Shown: positions 32,376 to 40,855 of the stretch, piece by piece
Numbering within the stretch: the first letter of the stretch is position 1
How the letters are laid out: each line of letters opens with the position of its first letter
Assembly (NCBI GenBank): GCA_025359185.1
Contig: JANYHF010000064.1
Location: 1 to 64,000, forward strand
Direction of reading: 5' to 3'
Source of the DNA: Hyphomicrobiaceae bacterium
GTDB lineage: Bacteria > Pseudomonadota > Alphaproteobacteria > Rhizobiales > Hyphomicrobiaceae
DNA: 64,000 nt
Made by a program: the position numbers and the translations under genes
The notes under the pieces: generated by a model
What the model was told of the DNA's origin: nothing
The model's input: only the letters and a program-made list of their open reading frames with translations
The model's database searches: none

Positions 32376-33458
32376 TTACCTCCCCACCAACCCCTCAAAC
32401 CCCTCCGCCAACCGATACTCCCGTCTCCTCCGCGACGCATCCGCCATCTCCAAAAACCCCTCCGCCACCCACCCCCGGCATAACGCCACCACGGTCCGCG
32501 GCTTCAGCCCAAGGCACGCCGCGATCTCCACCGACGTCGCGCTCGCCTTGCCCCGGAACAGCTCCAGCACCCGCCGCTGGCGCGGATCGAGCTGCCTCAG
32601 CCGTGCCGCCTGATCCTTCGCGCCGCGCGAACCAGCCCCGGCGGCCGCAGCCCGCACCTTTGCAAACGCCTCGGCCATGCCGGCGCAGAAATAGCCCACA
32701 AACCCAGTGAAGTCGGCCTCGGCGCGGCCTTCGTAGTCGTTGTGCGAGGGGCCGACGGCGAGCGCGCGGTAGTAGCCGGGCAGGTCCTCGGCGTAGTAGG
32801 CGTCGAGCGAATAGAGGCCCTTGAGGCCATAGCTCGCGCGTTGCAGGATCAGCGTCGCCAGCAGCCGGGCGGTGCGGCCGTTACCGTCATACCACGGATG
32901 AATGGTCGCGAGTTGATAGTGGGCGAGCGCGGCGATGACTGGCGCAGGTAAGTCTTCGCTGGCGAGCTCAGCGGCGGCCCAGGCGATCAGGTCCCGCATC
33001 AGGCCGGGCACATCCGGCGTTTCGGGCGGCAGATAGACGATGCGGCCCGAGCCGGTGTCGCGGATGACGTTCTGGCCATCGCGAAAGGGCGTGCCGCGAT
33101 TGCGGCCATGGAAGGCGAGGCCGTGCAGGCGTTTCACGTCAGCGATGCTGATACGGGTCTGGGTATCGGCCTGTATTTCCACCCAAGCGAGCGCGCGAAA
33201 ATAGTTGCGCACCTCCGCCTCGTCGCGCTCGCGGCCGGGAAAGCGCGCGCCTTGCAGCACCTCGCGCACCTGCGGCTCGGTCAGGCGGTTGCCTTCGATC
33301 ATGGTCGAAAAGTGGATGGACGTTACGCGCGCCGTCTCGCGCAGGCTCTGCAACAGCGCGACATCGATGGGCAGCTCGAGCACCGCCTGGCGGCAGGCCT
33401 CGATCTGCATGAGCGCGCGCGTGATGGCGGGCGTGATGCGGAAGGCGGGCGTGAACAT
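32376..33458 (-). CDS. Fic-family protein with C-terminal HTH-like region
   Basis: Fic motif HPWYDGNGRTARLLATLIL; N-terminal SIHFSTMIEGNRLT matches the inhibitory (S/T)xxxE(G/N) type. Confidence 0.9.
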   Translation of the reverse strand: MFTPAFRITPAITRALMQIEACRQAVLELPIDVALLQSLRETARVTSIHFSTMIEGNRLTEPQVREVLQGARFPGRERDEAEVRNYFRALAWVEIQADTQTRISIADVKRLHGLAFHGRNRGTPFRDGQNVIRDTGSGRIVYLPPETPDVPGLMRDLIAWAAAELASEDLPAPVIAALAHYQLATIHPWYDGNGRTARLLATLILQRASYGLKGLYSLDAYYAEDLPGYYRALAVGPSHNDYEGRAEADFTGFVGYFCAGMAEAFAKVRAAAAGAGSRGAKDQAARLRQLDPRQRRVLELFRGKASATSVEIAACLGLKPRTVVALCRGWVAEGFLEMADASRRRREYRLAEGFEGLVGR

Positions 33459-34038: not shown

Positions 34039-35058
34039 ATGGCCAAGCGAGACGTCGCCAAAAAGAGCAGCGCGACCTATGCCGACACCTTCACCCGGCC
34101 GAGCTTTCCGCTCTGGTTCATGCTGCTGTTTTTGGCCCTGGTCGGCTTCGTTTCGGCGATCCTCTATCAGAACATCCAGACCGCGTTCAACGGCAATCCG
34201 TTCTTGAATTCAGTGATCCTGGCGGTGCTGGCGATCGGCATCATCAACGCCTTCCGGCAGGTGTTGTCTTTGTACCCGGAAATAAGCTGGGTGACGGGGT
34301 TGCGTATCGCCGATCCGGGGCTTGCGGTGTCGCGCCAGCCGACGCTGCTGGCCCCCATGGCCAACATGCTGCGCGACCGGCGGGGCGTGCTGTCTTTGAC
34401 CCCAACGTCCATGCGTTCGATCATCGACAGCGTCGGCTCGCGGCTCGACGAACGGCGCGATACGGCGCGATATCTCGTGAATTTGCTGATCTTTCTCGGC
34501 CTGCTCGGAACCTTCTTTGGACTGTTGCAAACCCTGCAATCAGTGGGCAAAACCATCAACGCGCTGGACGTCGGATCGGGCGATGCGGTCAATGTGTTCT
34601 CGGAACTGAAGGCCGGTTTGCAGGCGCCGCTGACGGGCATGGGCACGGCGTTTTCGGCGTCGCTGTTCGGCCTCTCGGGCTCGCTGATCCTCGGGTTTCT
34701 GGAGCTGCAAACCTCGCAAGCGCAAAACCGCTTTTACAACGAATTTGAGGAGTGGCTGTCGGGTGTGACCGAGCTGACGCCGGCCGGCATGGAGGCGCAA
34801 ACGCCGCTGATGCAAACGGCGCTGGTGGACATCCGTCGCTCGATCGGCGCGCTCGATCAGCGGATGGCGGCGGCGCCGCAGGGGCCGGGCCAGACCGAGG
34901 CCGTACGCGAGCTCGCCGATGGCATCGAGAAGCTGGTGAAGCAGATGCGGGCCGAGCAAACGGTGGTGCGGCAATGGGTCGATGAGCAGTCCAACCAGCA
35001 GCACGAACTGATGACGGTGCTGCGCGAATTGTCGGCCCGTCTCGGCGCAAGGAACTGA
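34039..35058 (+). CDS. MotA/TolQ/ExbB-like proton channel protein
   Basis: ARYLVNLLIFLGLLGTFFGLLQTLQSVGKTIN...LKAGLQAPLTGMGTAFSASLFGLSGSLILGFLELQ MotA/ExbB-type helices. Confidence 0.8.
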   Translation: MAKRDVAKKSSATYADTFTRPSFPLWFMLLFLALVGFVSAILYQNIQTAFNGNPFLNSVILAVLAIGIINAFRQVLSLYPEISWVTGLRIADPGLAVSRQPTLLAPMANMLRDRRGVLSLTPTSMRSIIDSVGSRLDERRDTARYLVNLLIFLGLLGTFFGLLQTLQSVGKTINALDVGSGDAVNVFSELKAGLQAPLTGMGTAFSASLFGLSGSLILGFLELQTSQAQNRFYNEFEEWLSGVTELTPAGMEAQTPLMQTALVDIRRSIGALDQRMAAAPQGPGQTEAVRELADGIEKLVKQMRAEQTVVRQWVDEQSNQQHELMTVLRELSARLGARN

Positions 35059-35063
35059 CAGCG

Positions 35064-36092
35064 ATGGCTTACGCACGCGGCCGCCGGGGCAGCCAGGCTG
35101 ACAATTTCTGGCCCGGCTATGTCGATGTTCTGTCGACGTTGCTTTTGACCACCATCTTCCTGATGTCGCTGTTCATGGTCGCCCAGTTCATGGTCGGCCA
35201 GGAGGCGTCGGGCAAGAACAATGCCTTGAAGAAACTCACCCGCCAGTTGTCCGAGCTGACCGATCTGCTGGCCCTGGAAAAGACCACAAAGAAGTCGATG
35301 GAGGATGAGCTTTCCGGCCTGCAAGCCTCGCTCTCTGCGGCCAAGGGCGAGAGCAAAAAACTGCAAGGATTGATCGATCTCGACGTGGGCAAGATCAGCG
35401 CCGCCGAGGGCAAAGCCACGGCGCTGCAAGGCGATGTCGATAAGCAAACATCGCTGTCCGCCGAGGCGCAGGCCAAGGTCGATCTGCTCAATCAGCAGGT
35501 GCTGGCGATGCGCCGCCAGCTGGCCGCGCTGGAGGCGGCGGTGGGCGCGTCCGAGACCAAGGACAAGGAGAGCCAGGCCAAGATCGCTGATCTCGGCTCC
35601 AAGCTCAACGTGGCGCTGGCCAAGAAGGTGCAGGAGCTATCGCAATACCGCTCCGAGTTCTTCGGGCGGCTGAACACATTGCTGGCGGGCCGCAAGGACA
35701 TTCAGGTCGTCGGCGACCGCTTCGTGTTCCAGGCCGAGGTGCTGTTCCCGTCTGGCTCAGATGCGATGAACCCGGAAGGTCTGACAGCGCTCGATCCGCT
35801 GGCAACGGCGCTGGTTGAGCTGGAAGGGCAGATCCCGAAGGAGATCAGCTGGGTGCTGAGGGTCGACGGCCATACCGACGTTCGCCCGATCCGAAGCACC
35901 AATTTCCGCTCGAACTGGGAGCTGTCCAGCGCCCGCGCCATCGCCGTGGTCAAATACCTGATATCGCGCGGCGTCCCCTCCAACCGCCTCGCCGCCGCCG
36001 GCTTTGCCGAATTCCAGCCCATCGACGATGCGGTCAGCGAAGAGGCCTACGCCAAGAACCGTCGCATCGAGCTCAAGCTCACGGAGCGTTAG
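35064..36092 (+). CDS. MotB/OmpA-like protein: N-terminal TM, coiled coil, C-terminal OmpA peptidoglycan-binding domain
   Basis: NFWPGYVDVLSTLLLTTIFLMSLFMVAQFM; RVDGHTDVRPIRSTNFRSNWELSSARAIAVVKYLISRGVPSNRLAAAGFAEFQP. Confidence 0.85.
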   Translation: MAYARGRRGSQADNFWPGYVDVLSTLLLTTIFLMSLFMVAQFMVGQEASGKNNALKKLTRQLSELTDLLALEKTTKKSMEDELSGLQASLSAAKGESKKLQGLIDLDVGKISAAEGKATALQGDVDKQTSLSAEAQAKVDLLNQQVLAMRRQLAALEAAVGASETKDKESQAKIADLGSKLNVALAKKVQELSQYRSEFFGRLNTLLAGRKDIQVVGDRFVFQAEVLFPSGSDAMNPEGLTALDPLATALVELEGQIPKEISWVLRVDGHTDVRPIRSTNFRSNWELSSARAIAVVKYLISRGVPSNRLAAAGFAEFQPIDDAVSEEAYAKNRRIELKLTER

Positions 36093-36104: not shown

Positions 36105-36377
36105 CTACTTCGCGCAGGCCTTCGTGGTCGAGTGGCACTGCACATACACCAGTGCATCGGTGTTGCAGACCGTCTTGATCGCCGCGACGGGTTTGGCCTG
36201 CTCTTTGTCCATGGCCTGATGGGTCGCCTTTTCAGACATGAACGTGGCGATGGCCTGAGTAACGCCGATACCCCAGCCGCCGAAGCGGCCGCAAGTGCCG
36301 GCCTCAGCGCCACTGATGCTGACGCCCAGCGCTGCCGCGACGATCAAAGCCGATACGATTCTGGCTGACATACTCAT
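36105..36377 (-). CDS. Small secreted protein, Cys-containing, hypothetical
   Basis: Signal-peptide-like MSMSARIVSALIVAAALGVSISGAEA, aggagaag RBS. Confidence 0.65.
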   Translation of the reverse strand: MSMSARIVSALIVAAALGVSISGAEAGTCGRFGGWGIGVTQAIATFMSEKATHQAMDKEQAKPVAAIKTVCNTDALVYVQCHSTTKACAK

Positions 36378-36520
36378 GCGACTTCTCCTCATGCATTTTT
36401 CTTGCTGAACCCCTGACCTTAGACCGCACGGCCAGCGATGGCTGCAGCCCAGTTGCCACACCACATTCATTTGGTTTCTGGCACGCTTGTCTCAGGTTTC
36501 CGAATTTTTTCGATCCCGCT

Positions 36521-36553
36521 TCTGAACCTTTTCGGCGCTGCGCGAGACTTACT
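36521..36553 (+). promoter_or_regulatory. Candidate shared curlin promoter, copy 1: TCTGAACC-N17-GACTTACT
   Basis: Matches copies at 37506 and 38607 in sequence and spacing. Confidence 0.4.
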
Positions 36554-36619
36554 AGCGTGACCTACTGAACGGCCTGCAAAACGGCCACCCAAGCAAACCA
36601 GCAAACAGGAAACCTCGTC

Positions 36620-37054
36620 ATGATTAAGTTCGCAACTCTCGCATCGGTTCTCGTCATTTCACTCGGCCTTGGTGTTTCGTCCGCTGAAGCGGGCAACAAG
36701 TTCAAGCTCGACCAGTTCGGCTTGGGCAACTCATTCGGCGCCTCGCAGTTTGGCAATGGCAACAAGGCCCGTGGCATCCAGGACGGCTTCTTCAATCAGG
36801 GCAAAATCAAGCAGAACGGCTTCGGCAACGCCGCTGGCCTTGGCCAGTCGGGCGCTTTCCACCAGGGCAGCATCAACCAGAACGGCATCGGCAATGTCGG
36901 CGGCATCGGCCAGTCCGGCATCGGCCACAGCGCCAAGCTGAATCAGAACGGCGCGTTTAACGGCGGCCTGATCCTGCAGGACGGCGTCGGCCAATCGGCG
37001 GACGTGAACCAAAACGGCATCGGTAACTCGGCCATCGTCGAACAGGGCAACTAA
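36620..37054 (+). CDS. Curlin-repeat secreted protein (CsgA/CsgB-like), 1
   Basis: Signal peptide then GNKFKLDQFGLGNSFGASQFGNGNKA...INQNGIGNVGGIGQSGIGHSAKLNQNG...DVNQNGIGNSAIVEQGN repeats. Confidence 0.85.
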   Translation: MIKFATLASVLVISLGLGVSSAEAGNKFKLDQFGLGNSFGASQFGNGNKARGIQDGFFNQGKIKQNGFGNAAGLGQSGAFHQGSINQNGIGNVGGIGQSGIGHSAKLNQNGAFNGGLILQDGVGQSADVNQNGIGNSAIVEQGN

Positions 37055-37114
37055 GCCCGGCCAAAGGGGTGCGCAATCGATGCGCACCCCGCCATCCCCC
37101 ACCCATTTAGGAGC

Positions 37115-37486
37115 ATGCACATGTTGAAATCCCCCGCCTATCTTGTTCTTCCGCTGGCTCTGGCCGCCGCTGGCCTCGGCGCTGGCAGCAGCCCCGCCGC
37201 CGCCAAGGCTCCCGTCGCTTGCGATATCCGCGTCACCGAAACGGGTGGCACCCGCGAACTTTCGGCGGTTGTAATGGCCGCGTCGGCCATTACCGGCACC
37301 TACCAGTTCGATCTGAGTTCGGTCAGCTCGGCTGGCAATGCCGAAACCAGCCAAGGCGACGAAATGACCGCTGCGGCCGGTGAGACGGTCCTCAGCACCA
37401 CCAGCGTCAGCCCCGGCGGCAAATTCAATGCCAAACTTACCGTCACCTGGGCCGGCGGTTCGGCCAGCTGCGCCAAGAACGGCTAA
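37115..37486 (+). CDS. csgH: CsgH-like curli assembly protein
   Basis: CDIRVTETGGTRELSAVVMAASAITGTYQFDLSSVSSAGNAETSQGDEMTAAAGETVLSTTSVSPGGKFNAKLTVTWAGGSASC; position between curlin genes. Confidence 0.75.
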   Translation: MHMLKSPAYLVLPLALAAAGLGAGSSPAAAKAPVACDIRVTETGGTRELSAVVMAASAITGTYQFDLSSVSSAGNAETSQGDEMTAAAGETVLSTTSVSPGGKFNAKLTVTWAGGSASCAKNG

Positions 37487-37505
37487 GCAGAAAACTGCAC
37501 CCCGC

Positions 37506-37538
37506 TTTGAACCCTCTCAACACCTCAGACGACTACCA
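37506..37538 (+). promoter_or_regulatory. Candidate shared curlin promoter, copy 2: TTTGAACC-N17-GACTACCA
   Basis: 39 nt upstream of the ATG at 37577; matches copy 3. Confidence 0.45.
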
Positions 37539-37576
37539 GTCACAGCAACCAAACACCCCCAAACAGGAGACTTCAA

Positions 37577-37957
37577 ATGACCACGCGCGCTTTCTCGGCC
37601 CTCGCTCTCGCAACCGTTCTAGCTCTTGGCTTTGGTGCCACCGGCGCTGAAGCTGCCGGTAACAAACTGAAGCTGCACCAATTCGGTTTCGCTAACAGCT
37701 ACGGCGGCAGCCAGTTCGGCAACGGCAACAGCTCCAACACCTCGCAGAACGGCAATTTCAACGACACCCAGACATCGCAGAATGGCAATGGCAACCACAC
37801 CGCCGTCGGCGTATTCGGCAGCAACAACAAGCTGAAGACCGCGCAGAACGGCAACAACAACAACCTGGGCGTGTTGCAGCTTGGAAACGGCTCGAACACC
37901 TCGGTTTCGCAGAACGGCAACAACGGCAACACCATCGTGCTCGATATGGGGATGTAA
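37577..37957 (+). CDS. Curlin-repeat secreted protein (CsgA/CsgB-like), 2
   Basis: GNKLKLHQFGFANSYGGSQFGNGNSSNTSQNGNFNDTQTSQNGNGNHTAVGVFGSNNKLKTAQNGNNNNLGVLQLGNGSNTSVSQNGNNG. Confidence 0.87.
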   Translation: MTTRAFSALALATVLALGFGATGAEAAGNKLKLHQFGFANSYGGSQFGNGNSSNTSQNGNFNDTQTSQNGNGNHTAVGVFGSNNKLKTAQNGNNNNLGVLQLGNGSNTSVSQNGNNGNTIVLDMGM

Positions 37958-38061
37958 CCCTGATCAGCGCGCCGTGCCTCCCAAGCGCTGGTCAGCTGCC
38001 AAAAGCAGCGGCCAGCGTCCTCCATAAGTTCAGCCGCCCGGCCACCCAAAGGATACCCATC

Positions 38062-38514
38062 ATGACCAGACATTTTGCCATCGCCTCAGCCGTGCTTCTA
38101 TCGCTCACTCTTGGCGCGACGTTAGCCCATGCGGGCCAGTCCAAATCCAGAACCATGCTCCTGCCTGGTAATGGCGCTGTCGAACAGCGGCTGAACAACC
38201 TGTGGGCGACCATGCACCAGGACGAGCAGGCCGCACCGGAAGCCACACATGCTGGCTCGATGTCGATGCTGAACTGGCTGTTCCGCGACATGAACAGCGA
38301 CCCTGCTGATCTTGCGCCCATCCCCACGGTGATCGTGCCGGATACCTCCACCTCGATGATCCCGCCCGTCGTCACCGAAGTTCCAGCGCCCACCCTTCCC
38401 CCTGCGGCCCTGGCCCCGAACCGCATTTTTAAACTGCAGATCGGCAAAGGCCACAAACTCGACATCCAGCAGCATGGCGCAGGCAACTCCGCCTCGATCG
38501 TGCAGAGCAAGTAG
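38062..38514 (+). CDS. Secreted protein with one C-terminal curlin-like repeat
   Basis: Signal peptide, Pro-rich middle, terminal FKLQIGKGHKLDIQQHGAGNSASIVQSK. Confidence 0.7.
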   Translation: MTRHFAIASAVLLSLTLGATLAHAGQSKSRTMLLPGNGAVEQRLNNLWATMHQDEQAAPEATHAGSMSMLNWLFRDMNSDPADLAPIPTVIVPDTSTSMIPPVVTEVPAPTLPPAALAPNRIFKLQIGKGHKLDIQQHGAGNSASIVQSK

Positions 38515-38606
38515 GAGACCACGTCCATGCAAACCCCAGGGGAGTCCTAGCGGCTCCCCTATTTGATTCCGGCCCTTTGATCATTCTTGGAATTTCTTTG
38601 GCGAGG

Positions 38607-38640
38607 TTTGAACCTGTTCCGGGGTGACCGGCGACTACCA
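38607..38640 (+). promoter_or_regulatory. Candidate shared curlin promoter, copy 3: TTTGAACC-N18-GACTACCA
   Basis: About 40 nt upstream of the ATG at 38680; downstream AACACCCC.AAC.GGAGAC leader also shared with copy 2. Confidence 0.45.
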
Positions 38641-38679
38641 AGCATCAAGAATTCAAAACACCCCAACCGGAGACGCACC

Positions 38680-39108
38680 ATGAAGACCTCGATGCTCAGA
38701 ACCGCCCTCGTCGCCCTCAGCCTCAGCCTCGTAGCCACCACCGGCCTCACCAGCGCCGCACAGGCCCAGGGTCAATTGAGCTTCGATATTCAGGCCTCCA
38801 AGAATACCAAGGAAGGCAAAGTCCTCGACATTTTTAATCAGGTCGCAGCCAGTGGCGCCCTCAACGGCGGCAAGGGCAACCGCACCAAGGTCAGCCAGCA
38901 CGGCAACAAGAACTGTGCGGGCGTCAAGCAGCACGGCAAGAGCAACACGGCCGCAGTCGGCCAGTTCGGCAACCAAAACTGCACGAACGTCGCCCAGAAC
39001 GGCAACAACAACTCCCAGAGCGTGTTCCAGTTCGGCAACGGCACGTCGTCGAACGTCACCCAGAACGGCGACAACCAAGCCGGTCTGCATATCGACGCCG
39101 GGCTGTAA
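38680..39108 (+). CDS. Curlin-repeat secreted protein 3, with cysteines in repeats
   Basis: GNRTKVSQHGNKNCAGVKQHGKSNTAAVGQFGNQNCTNVAQNGNNNSQSVFQFGNGTSSNVTQNGDNQ. Confidence 0.85.
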   Translation: MKTSMLRTALVALSLSLVATTGLTSAAQAQGQLSFDIQASKNTKEGKVLDIFNQVAASGALNGGKGNRTKVSQHGNKNCAGVKQHGKSNTAAVGQFGNQNCTNVAQNGNNNSQSVFQFGNGTSSNVTQNGDNQAGLHIDAGL

Positions 39109-39274
39109 TCGCTCCAGCGCCCAGTCCCCAGCCATCGGCCGCCACCTTGAACCAGGTGGCGGCCGATGTCGTTTTCCGGCCCCCTGTTGCCGCCTGAGGA
39201 CGCTTTCGCGCTTGCCACCTGCCCTAGACCGGAGCCAGATCGAACTGGCCGATGTCAAACAATGGAGAGCCCTA

Positions 39275-40855
39275 GTGGCTGACGAACCGGAAACTGGCGG
39301 ACGCCGCAAGCGCGGCGCGGGCGGCGGTGCCGAGGCCCGGCGGCTGTTGCGCGGCAGTCAGGGCAACATTCAGCTCCCTTACATCCAGCGCAAGATCCTG
39401 CCTTACAACATCCTCAGCGATGAGAGCCTCGACATCATCGAGGCCAATGCCGATACGATCCTGCAGGAAATCGGCATCGAGATTCGTGAGGATCCCGAAG
39501 CTGTTGAGCTGTTCCGCAAAGCCGGTGCAGATTGCAAGGTGCTCGACGCCGAGAAAGTGCGTGTGCGCTTTCCCAAGGGCCTGCCGCGTTCGATCATCCA
39601 GAAGACCGCGCCCAAGAGCTTCATCCAGCACGCCCGCAACCCGGAGCGTTCGGTGGAAATCGGTGGCAATTCGACCGTGTTTGCCCCGGTCTACGGCCCG
39701 CCGTTTGTGCGCGGCCTTGATGGGGTTCGCCGCTACGGCACCATCGCCGATTTCCAGAACCTTGTGCGGCTGGCCTATATGGCCCCGGCGCTGCACCATT
39801 CTGGCGGCACCGTTTGCGAGCCGGTCGATGTGCCCGTCAACAAGCGCCATCTCGATATGGTGCAGGCGCACATAAAATACTCCGATAAGCCGTTCATGGG
39901 CTCGGTGACGCATCCGCTGCGCGCCGAGGACAGCGTCAGCATGGCCAAGCTGGTGTTCGGCGACAAGTTCGTCGATGAGAACTGCGTACTGATCAACCTC
40001 ATCAATGTCAATTCGCCGATGATTTATGACAATATCATGCTCGGTGCGCTGAAGGTCTACGCGGCGGCCAATCAGGCGACCATCGTCACGCCGTTCATTC
40101 TCTCGGGCGCGATGTCGCCGGTGGCCCAAGCGGGTACACTGACGCAGGTGCTGGCGGAAGTGCTGTGCGGCGCGTCGCTCACTCAGCTCGTTCGTCCGGG
40201 TGCGCCCGTCGTGTTCGGCGTGTTCGCCTCCTCGATGTCGATGCAGACCGGCGCGCCGACGTTCGGCACGCCCGAACCCTCGATGGTCATCTACGGCGCG
40301 GCGCAGCTTGCCCGGCGCCTCGGCATCCCGTTCCGGTCGGGCGGTTCTTTGTGCGCGTCGAAACTGCCCGACGCGCAAGCCGCCTACGAAAGTGCGCAGA
40401 CATTGATCCCCACTTTGATGGCGGGCACGCATTTTGTTCTGCACGCGGCCGGATGGCTGGAGGGCGGCCTCGTCTCCTCCTTCGACAAGTTCATCATGGA
40501 CGTCGATCAGTGCGCCATGATGCAGCGCTTTGCCGAAGGCATTGACATGAGCGAAAACGGCCAAGCCATGGACGCCATCCGTGAAGTACGCAACGCCGGC
40601 AAAACGCACTTCCTCGAAAGCGCCCACACCCGCGCCAATTTCGAAAGCGCGTTCTACCGCTCGATCGTCGCCAACAATGACAGCTATGAGCAGTGGACGG
40701 CCGAAGGCGAGAAGCGCACCGAGGACAAGGCCCACAACATCGCCGAGAAATGGCTGAAGGATTACGAAGCCCCCGCACTCGATCCGGCAATTGAAGAGTC
40801 GCTCGTCGCGTTCGTGGCCAAGAAAAAGGCCTCGATGCCCGACGCCTTCACATGA
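39275..40855 (+). CDS. Trimethylamine methyltransferase family protein (MttB superfamily, no in-frame amber codon)
   Basis: ILSDESLDIIEANADTILQEIGIEIREDPEAVELFRKAGADC...TSMQTGAPTFGTPEPSMVIYGAAQLARRLGIPFRSGGSL; GTG start with ggagag RBS. Confidence 0.88.
   Translation: MADEPETGGRRKRGAGGGAEARRLLRGSQGNIQLPYIQRKILPYNILSDESLDIIEANADTILQEIGIEIREDPEAVELFRKAGADCKVLDAEKVRVRFPKGLPRSIIQKTAPKSFIQHARNPERSVEIGGNSTVFAPVYGPPFVRGLDGVRRYGTIADFQNLVRLAYMAPALHHSGGTVCEPVDVPVNKRHLDMVQAHIKYSDKPFMGSVTHPLRAEDSVSMAKLVFGDKFVDENCVLINLINVNSPMIYDNIMLGALKVYAAANQATIVTPFILSGAMSPVAQAGTLTQVLAEVLCGASLTQLVRPGAPVVFGVFASSMSMQTGAPTFGTPEPSMVIYGAAQLARRLGIPFRSGGSLCASKLPDAQAAYESAQTLIPTLMAGTHFVLHAAGWLEGGLVSSFDKFIMDVDQCAMMQRFAEGIDMSENGQAMDAIREVRNAGKTHFLESAHTRANFESAFYRSIVANNDSYEQWTAEGEKRTEDKAHNIAEKWLKDYEAPALDPAIEESLVAFVAKKKASMPDAFT

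Follow-up and report, generated by a model that had tools for sequence, protein, structure and literature searches.

CsgG is taken as essential for curli, and the curlin gene cluster described here therefore raises the question of how amyloid subunits might be exported where no csg secretion gene stands beside them. The cluster lies at 36620-39108 of the window, the whole 64,000-nucleotide stretch of Hyphomicrobiaceae DNA that was analysed. The first-pass annotation had read it as an alphaproteobacterial multi-curlin operon with a CsgH-like gene and with no CsgE, CsgF or CsgG in view, and had offered two explanations, namely that the secretion genes are located elsewhere or that a different export route is used.

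Curlins, CsgH and ORF4 of the window

Five plus strand ORFs with signal-peptide-like N-termini (judged by eye and by a simple rule) are present at 36620-39108, just as had been described, in the order curlin A1, CsgH, curlin A2, ORF4 and curlin B, and a third-position GC of 0.74-0.85 together with ribosome-binding sites supports all five as genes. Curlin A1 (ORF1, 36620-37054, 144 aa) consists of a signal peptide followed by about ten 11-residue curlin half-repeats, while curlin A2 (ORF3, 37577-37957, 126 aa) is a shortened paralogue of A1. The two share 45% identity along 119 aa (E ~5e-30), which supports the duplication proposed earlier. Against the Pfam Curlin_rpt cut-off of 20.7 bits, ORF1, ORF3 and ORF5 score 35.8, 25.2 and 43.8 bits, respectively, so that the three ORFs noted for curlin-type repeats are borne out.

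The AlphaFold2 model of A1, which was built from 21 related sequences, is an 11-strand solenoid (pLDDT 89), which Foldseek matches best to 8enq, the CsgA fibril of E. coli (E 2.3e-5). The curlin A profile also matches solved CsgA (8enq, 4.5e-7) as well as another curlin (8c50, 1.5e-57). Curlin HMM matches and a predicted stacked beta-solenoid are thus both found, the two features whose absence the first-pass annotation had named as speaking against a curlin cluster.

ORF5 (38680-39108, 142 aa) is a B-type curlin, which starts at the ATG at 38680 with a purine-rich site ahead of it and not at the mechanically assigned TTG at 38587. Its model (AlphaFold2, pLDDT 82) has a strand at residues 32-40 and a helix at 44-60, followed by a seven-strand solenoid. 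This N-terminal strand-helix lead, which is predicted with modest confidence and gave no confident match in a structure search, could cap one end of the solenoid. ORF4 (38062-38514, 150 aa) is composed of a signal peptide, a unique N-terminal part, a Pro-rich linker and a single C-terminal curlin repeat; the repeat reported earlier is present, but at 14.7 bits it stays under the Curlin_rpt cut-off. No convincing relative of ORF4 was found beyond the curlin repeat, and the sole weak match (E 0.00135) lay in a frame with a stop, had no curlin-like sequence around it and was judged to be due to chance. As a guess, ORF4 may serve as an anchor or cap.

The CsgH-like ORF2 (37115-37486, 123 aa) is confirmed as CsgH by Pfam PF21112 (37.7 bits, cut-off 27) and NCBIfam NF041112 (77.9 bits, cut-off 35), and carries two conserved cysteines, one near each end of the domain. 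The family profile matches the solved CsgH 2N59 (E 5.5e-23). The window protein scores low for its family, and its position in a tree, for which few alignment columns were available, was not resolved. CsgH is known to inhibit curlin nucleation in the periplasm (PMC4838910, PMC5135000), and amyloid inhibition has been demonstrated for the CsgH of R. palustris (PMC4838910); by analogy with this family, the window CsgH would be expected to have the same function.

Several hairpins were found on the plus strand of the cluster. A 10-bp hairpin at 37066-37090 sits in the 60-nt gap that separates curlin A1 from CsgH, the RNA of which folds at -25.3 kcal/mol. Hairpins follow curlin A in many other cassettes of this kind (mean z ~ -2 versus simple base shuffles), and such a hairpin might set the ratio of curlin A to CsgH. 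The strong hairpin at 39133-39168, with a 15-pair stem, a T-rich tail and a fold of -39.8 kcal/mol, is likely to be the end of the transcription unit. A terminator-like hairpin was also picked up by a consensus scan at 38538-38560, between ORF4 and ORF5, where it is a weak signal since such sites are no more numerous than in shuffles. The reading as an alphaproteobacterial multi-curlin cluster with CsgH is backed by family models, structure prediction and the named relatives described below, but the cluster may not form a single operon, given this hairpin between ORF4 and ORF5.

As for the neighbouring genes, a divergent 121-aa ORF at 36105-36470 on the minus strand adjoins curlin A1; its N-terminus is signal-like, and it matched no family. 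A Fic/DOC family protein is encoded at 32376-33458, also on the minus strand. Directly 3' of the cluster, the mechanical ORF 38852-40855 (plus strand) contains a full-length, open gene of the trimethylamine methyltransferase (MTTB) family (712 bits). The MTTB domain begins at about 39320, the true gene start being well within this ORF, and the gene has no in-frame stop and is thus not of the pyrrolysine type.

CsgG-free curlin cassettes in the host genome and its order

The host genome is a draft assembly of 4.04 Mb in 125 contigs with 97% completeness. CsgG (PF03783) has no match anywhere in the assembled genome, and CsgE and CsgF have none at E values up to 0.1, while the controls, including that of E. 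coli, were detected. The lack of CsgE, CsgF and CsgG noted in view of the cluster is thereby extended to the assembled genome. A custom profile made from nine alphaproteobacterial CsgG/HfaB sequences (one row being HfaB-like) likewise gave nothing significant in 21 cassette genomes, host included; this absence is one by profile models, which an unrelated pore would escape.

In the same genome, contig C90 bears a second CsgH together with an ordinary curlin A, and contig C96 bears an ordinary B curlin. Given this ordinary set, the window cluster is a second one, in which the common cassette curlin A - CsgH - curlin B is present once more in a diverged and expanded form. A1 aligns with the A subunits of such cassettes and ORF5 with the B subunits (~26-34% identity), and the sequences of ORF5 and A2 both depart from those usual for B and A, respectively. 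It might be argued that the window set duplicates the C90/C96 cassette and is now decaying, without a function of its own, as the genome has CsgH twice and curlins in two sets, A2 is shortened, and the window CsgH scores low. However, all five frames are intact and retain the third-position GC and ribosome-binding sites of genes, the CsgH cysteines are conserved, and the repeats are regular enough to give a confident solenoid, so we regard decay as improbable.

To place the cassette in a wider frame, we surveyed 397 genomes of one order, each at least 90% complete. CsgH occurs in 64 of them, CsgG in 43, and both in 15. Of the 64 genomes with CsgH, 49 have no CsgG, and ten of these 49 are single-contig. 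Where both are present, CsgG lies within ~13 kb of CsgH in 11 of the 15 genomes. These CsgG-linked clusters (e.g. L144, L146 and L153) resemble the window in having curlins and CsgH adjacent, and differ from it in the nearby CsgG and in their main curlins, which are mostly long (about 350-800 aa). When the 11 CsgG-linked genomes are left aside, CsgG is found in 4 of 53 genomes with CsgH versus 28 of 333 without it (P = 1.0, a guide only as the surveyed genomes are related), indicating that the CsgG-free cassette and CsgG are distributed independently of each other. In one of the four unlinked genomes (G049), the CsgG-family match is HfaB-like.

Since the CsgH alignment was too diverged for a genome scan, curlin A was used as the query in a scan of GTDB genomes, which returned 251 relatives, and 80 loci were kept. 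CsgH stands beside curlin A in all 80 loci, and a further curlin follows downstream in 78. The loci belong to Rhizobium, Agrobacterium, Mesorhizobium, Sinorhizobium, Devosia, Pelagibacterium, Bauldia, Roseibium and other Hyphomicrobiales. Among 12 named genomes checked, CsgG is missing in nine, including A. tumefaciens B6, R. mesoamericanum STM3625 and Mesorhizobium sp. AR07, the last with a complete chromosome and three curlin A loci. The absence of CsgG is thus not peculiar to the window but is the rule for the curlin-CsgH cassette, to which the window conforms with an A curlin beside CsgH, a downstream B-type curlin with a lead, and a genome without CsgG.

These data bear on the first explanation offered earlier, that the secretion genes are elsewhere, which is disfavoured for CsgE, CsgF and CsgG: none is found in the genome, and CsgG is missing in most of the CsgH-bearing relatives. 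CsgG, CsgE and CsgF might still be present in assembly gaps of this 97% complete draft, or CsgG might be too diverged for the models, and CsgG does stand near CsgH in 11 related genomes. Nevertheless, the ten single-contig relatives show the same absence, and the nine-sequence profile found nothing significant in the cassette genomes, which makes a hidden CsgG very improbable.

Within the cassettes, curlin A is mostly 143-145 aa long, and its identity to one reference is 57-68% in most families and ~40% in the family of the window. Most curlin A proteins have a cysteine within the final repeats and terminate in Cys-Pro, which is not so in the window's family. Curlin B is ~137 aa long, with a lead of roughly 40 residues ahead of the repeats; the last residue is Trp or Phe in 40 of the 45 B-like sequences, and Leu in ORF5.

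Some genomes carry repeated cassettes, such as three CsgH genes within ~13 kb in G073 (L112), two CsgH with identical domains ~13 kb apart in G109 (L109/L110), and a tandem cassette pair in G328 (L132). CsgH clusters with no nearby CsgG and with curlins unlike A or B were also seen (L135 in G148, L151 in G214, L138 in G094 and L139 in G150), and these perhaps represent a further curlin class. Moreover, two loci (L019, G017:C82, and L103, G183:C1) have CsgH with no curlin detected within ~10 kb, as orphan inhibitors.

Candidate export routes and a proposed pathway

CsgG-less clusters are not new as such. According to Dueholm et al. 2012 (PMC3521004), many Alphaproteobacteria have only curlin subunits and csgH findable, and other proteins must take over. 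A 2014 review (PMC4018554) mentioned curlin genes of A. tumefaciens and R. etli with their role unassigned, and in the very large set examined by Sleutel et al. 2023 (PMC10192328), genomes with CsgA but no CsgG made up a 2% minority. The csgAB genes BN77v1_p11016-11018 of R. mesoamericanum drop 2.6-3 fold with root exudates (PMC5789663); we infer that they correspond to locus L183, which indicates that the cassette-type cluster in this species is expressed and regulated. In the open-access literature, no paper testing the export mechanism of CsgG-free cassettes was found. The kind has therefore been known since 2012. What is new here are the order-wide numbers, the anatomy of A and B with a predicted B cap, and the orphan ORF4.

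No adjacent export gene is shared among ~60 cassette neighbourhoods (up to 20 kb each) in an all-against-all comparison, the shared genes being only ABC ATPases, response regulators, SDRs, GntR regulators and similar. In the window, a MotA/TolQ/ExbB-like gene (just under cut-off) followed by an OmpA-domain gene lies 5' of the cluster at 34039-36092 on the plus strand. This pair was rejected as a cluster partner, as it is not kept beside other cassettes, where a single OmpA-type match was the only one. Type II secretion was rejected as a common route, since a true GspD above cut-off occurs in only 4 of 21 cassette genomes (host included); most of the remaining ones have partial secretin matches only, and one (G133) has none. 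The N22 export signal, which has been called the exception (PMC10192328), did not serve as a discriminator either, for it is missing in CsgG-free and CsgG-linked curlins alike.

With CsgE, CsgF and CsgG elsewhere disfavoured, a different export route, the second of the two explanations offered at the outset, appears to be what remains. We consider it probable that the window is a copy of the CsgG-free cassette whose curlins leave by an unlinked, non-CsgG route and polymerise outside, with B capping or seeding the fibre. As implied by their signal peptides, A1, A2 and the B-type ORF5 would cross the inner membrane by Sec, and CsgH would keep them unpolymerised in the periplasm, both steps being modelled on known families. 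The curlins might then exit through an outer-membrane route that is not CsgG and has no genes beside the cluster, and assemble into beta-solenoid fibres, of which the capped B subunit, and perhaps ORF4 too, may seed or anchor one end. More tentatively, CsgG-free cassettes as a whole could constitute a functional-amyloid pathway of their own, with an unrecognised route that carries the subunits across the outer membrane. For instance, a general machine such as BAM might deliver the capped B to the outer membrane, where it would seed curlin A, an idea drawn only from the loose resemblance of the Trp/Phe end of B to outer-membrane beta-signals.

Alternatively, the curlins may never be exported and may act in the periplasm or envelope, where CsgH holds them soluble or limits their polymerisation. 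The genome-wide lack of CsgG, CsgE and CsgF and of a conserved exporter near the cassettes would fit such a role, as would the fact that, of the accessory proteins, only CsgH, which acts as an inhibitor in the periplasm, is always retained. On the other hand, curlin A is well conserved with solenoid repeats as in fibre-forming curlins, and we know of no precedent for a curlin function in the periplasm. We therefore favour non-CsgG export with fibres outside and hold the periplasmic role to be unlikely, albeit the main rival.

Relation to known curli systems

The window is closest to the CsgG-less alphaproteobacterial clusters reported before (PMC3521004), in which curlins likewise stand beside csgH, no csgG, csgE or csgF could be found, and export was left open. 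Unlike these clusters, it has five genes (two A-type curlins, one B-type curlin and the orphan ORF4), and its genome holds a second, ordinary set. With the curli of E. coli (csgBAC, csgDEFG), it shares the curlin repeats, here with a predicted solenoid, and a CsgC-like inhibitor, which in the window is CsgH (PMC4838910). In contrast to E. coli, the window has two CsgA-like curlins and a B with a different N-terminal lead, and of a complete curli (csg) secretion system its genome possesses the curlin subunits and lacks the CsgG pore, CsgE and CsgF. The holdfast anchor HfaABD of Caulobacter also involves a curlin-like protein, HfaA, in an alphaproteobacterium, but HfaA needs HfaB, a CsgG homologue (PMC6707917), whereas the window genome has none (no PF03783).

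The order concerned includes Rhizobium, Agrobacterium and Mesorhizobium, and the cassette is found across many of its families. With the survey, the 2012 remark becomes a question that can be put to the test in named strains without CsgG. Because the cassette occurs in many Hyphomicrobiales families independently of CsgG, CsgH-guarded curlins of this type would point either to a second way of exporting amyloid subunits or to a job for curlins inside the envelope.
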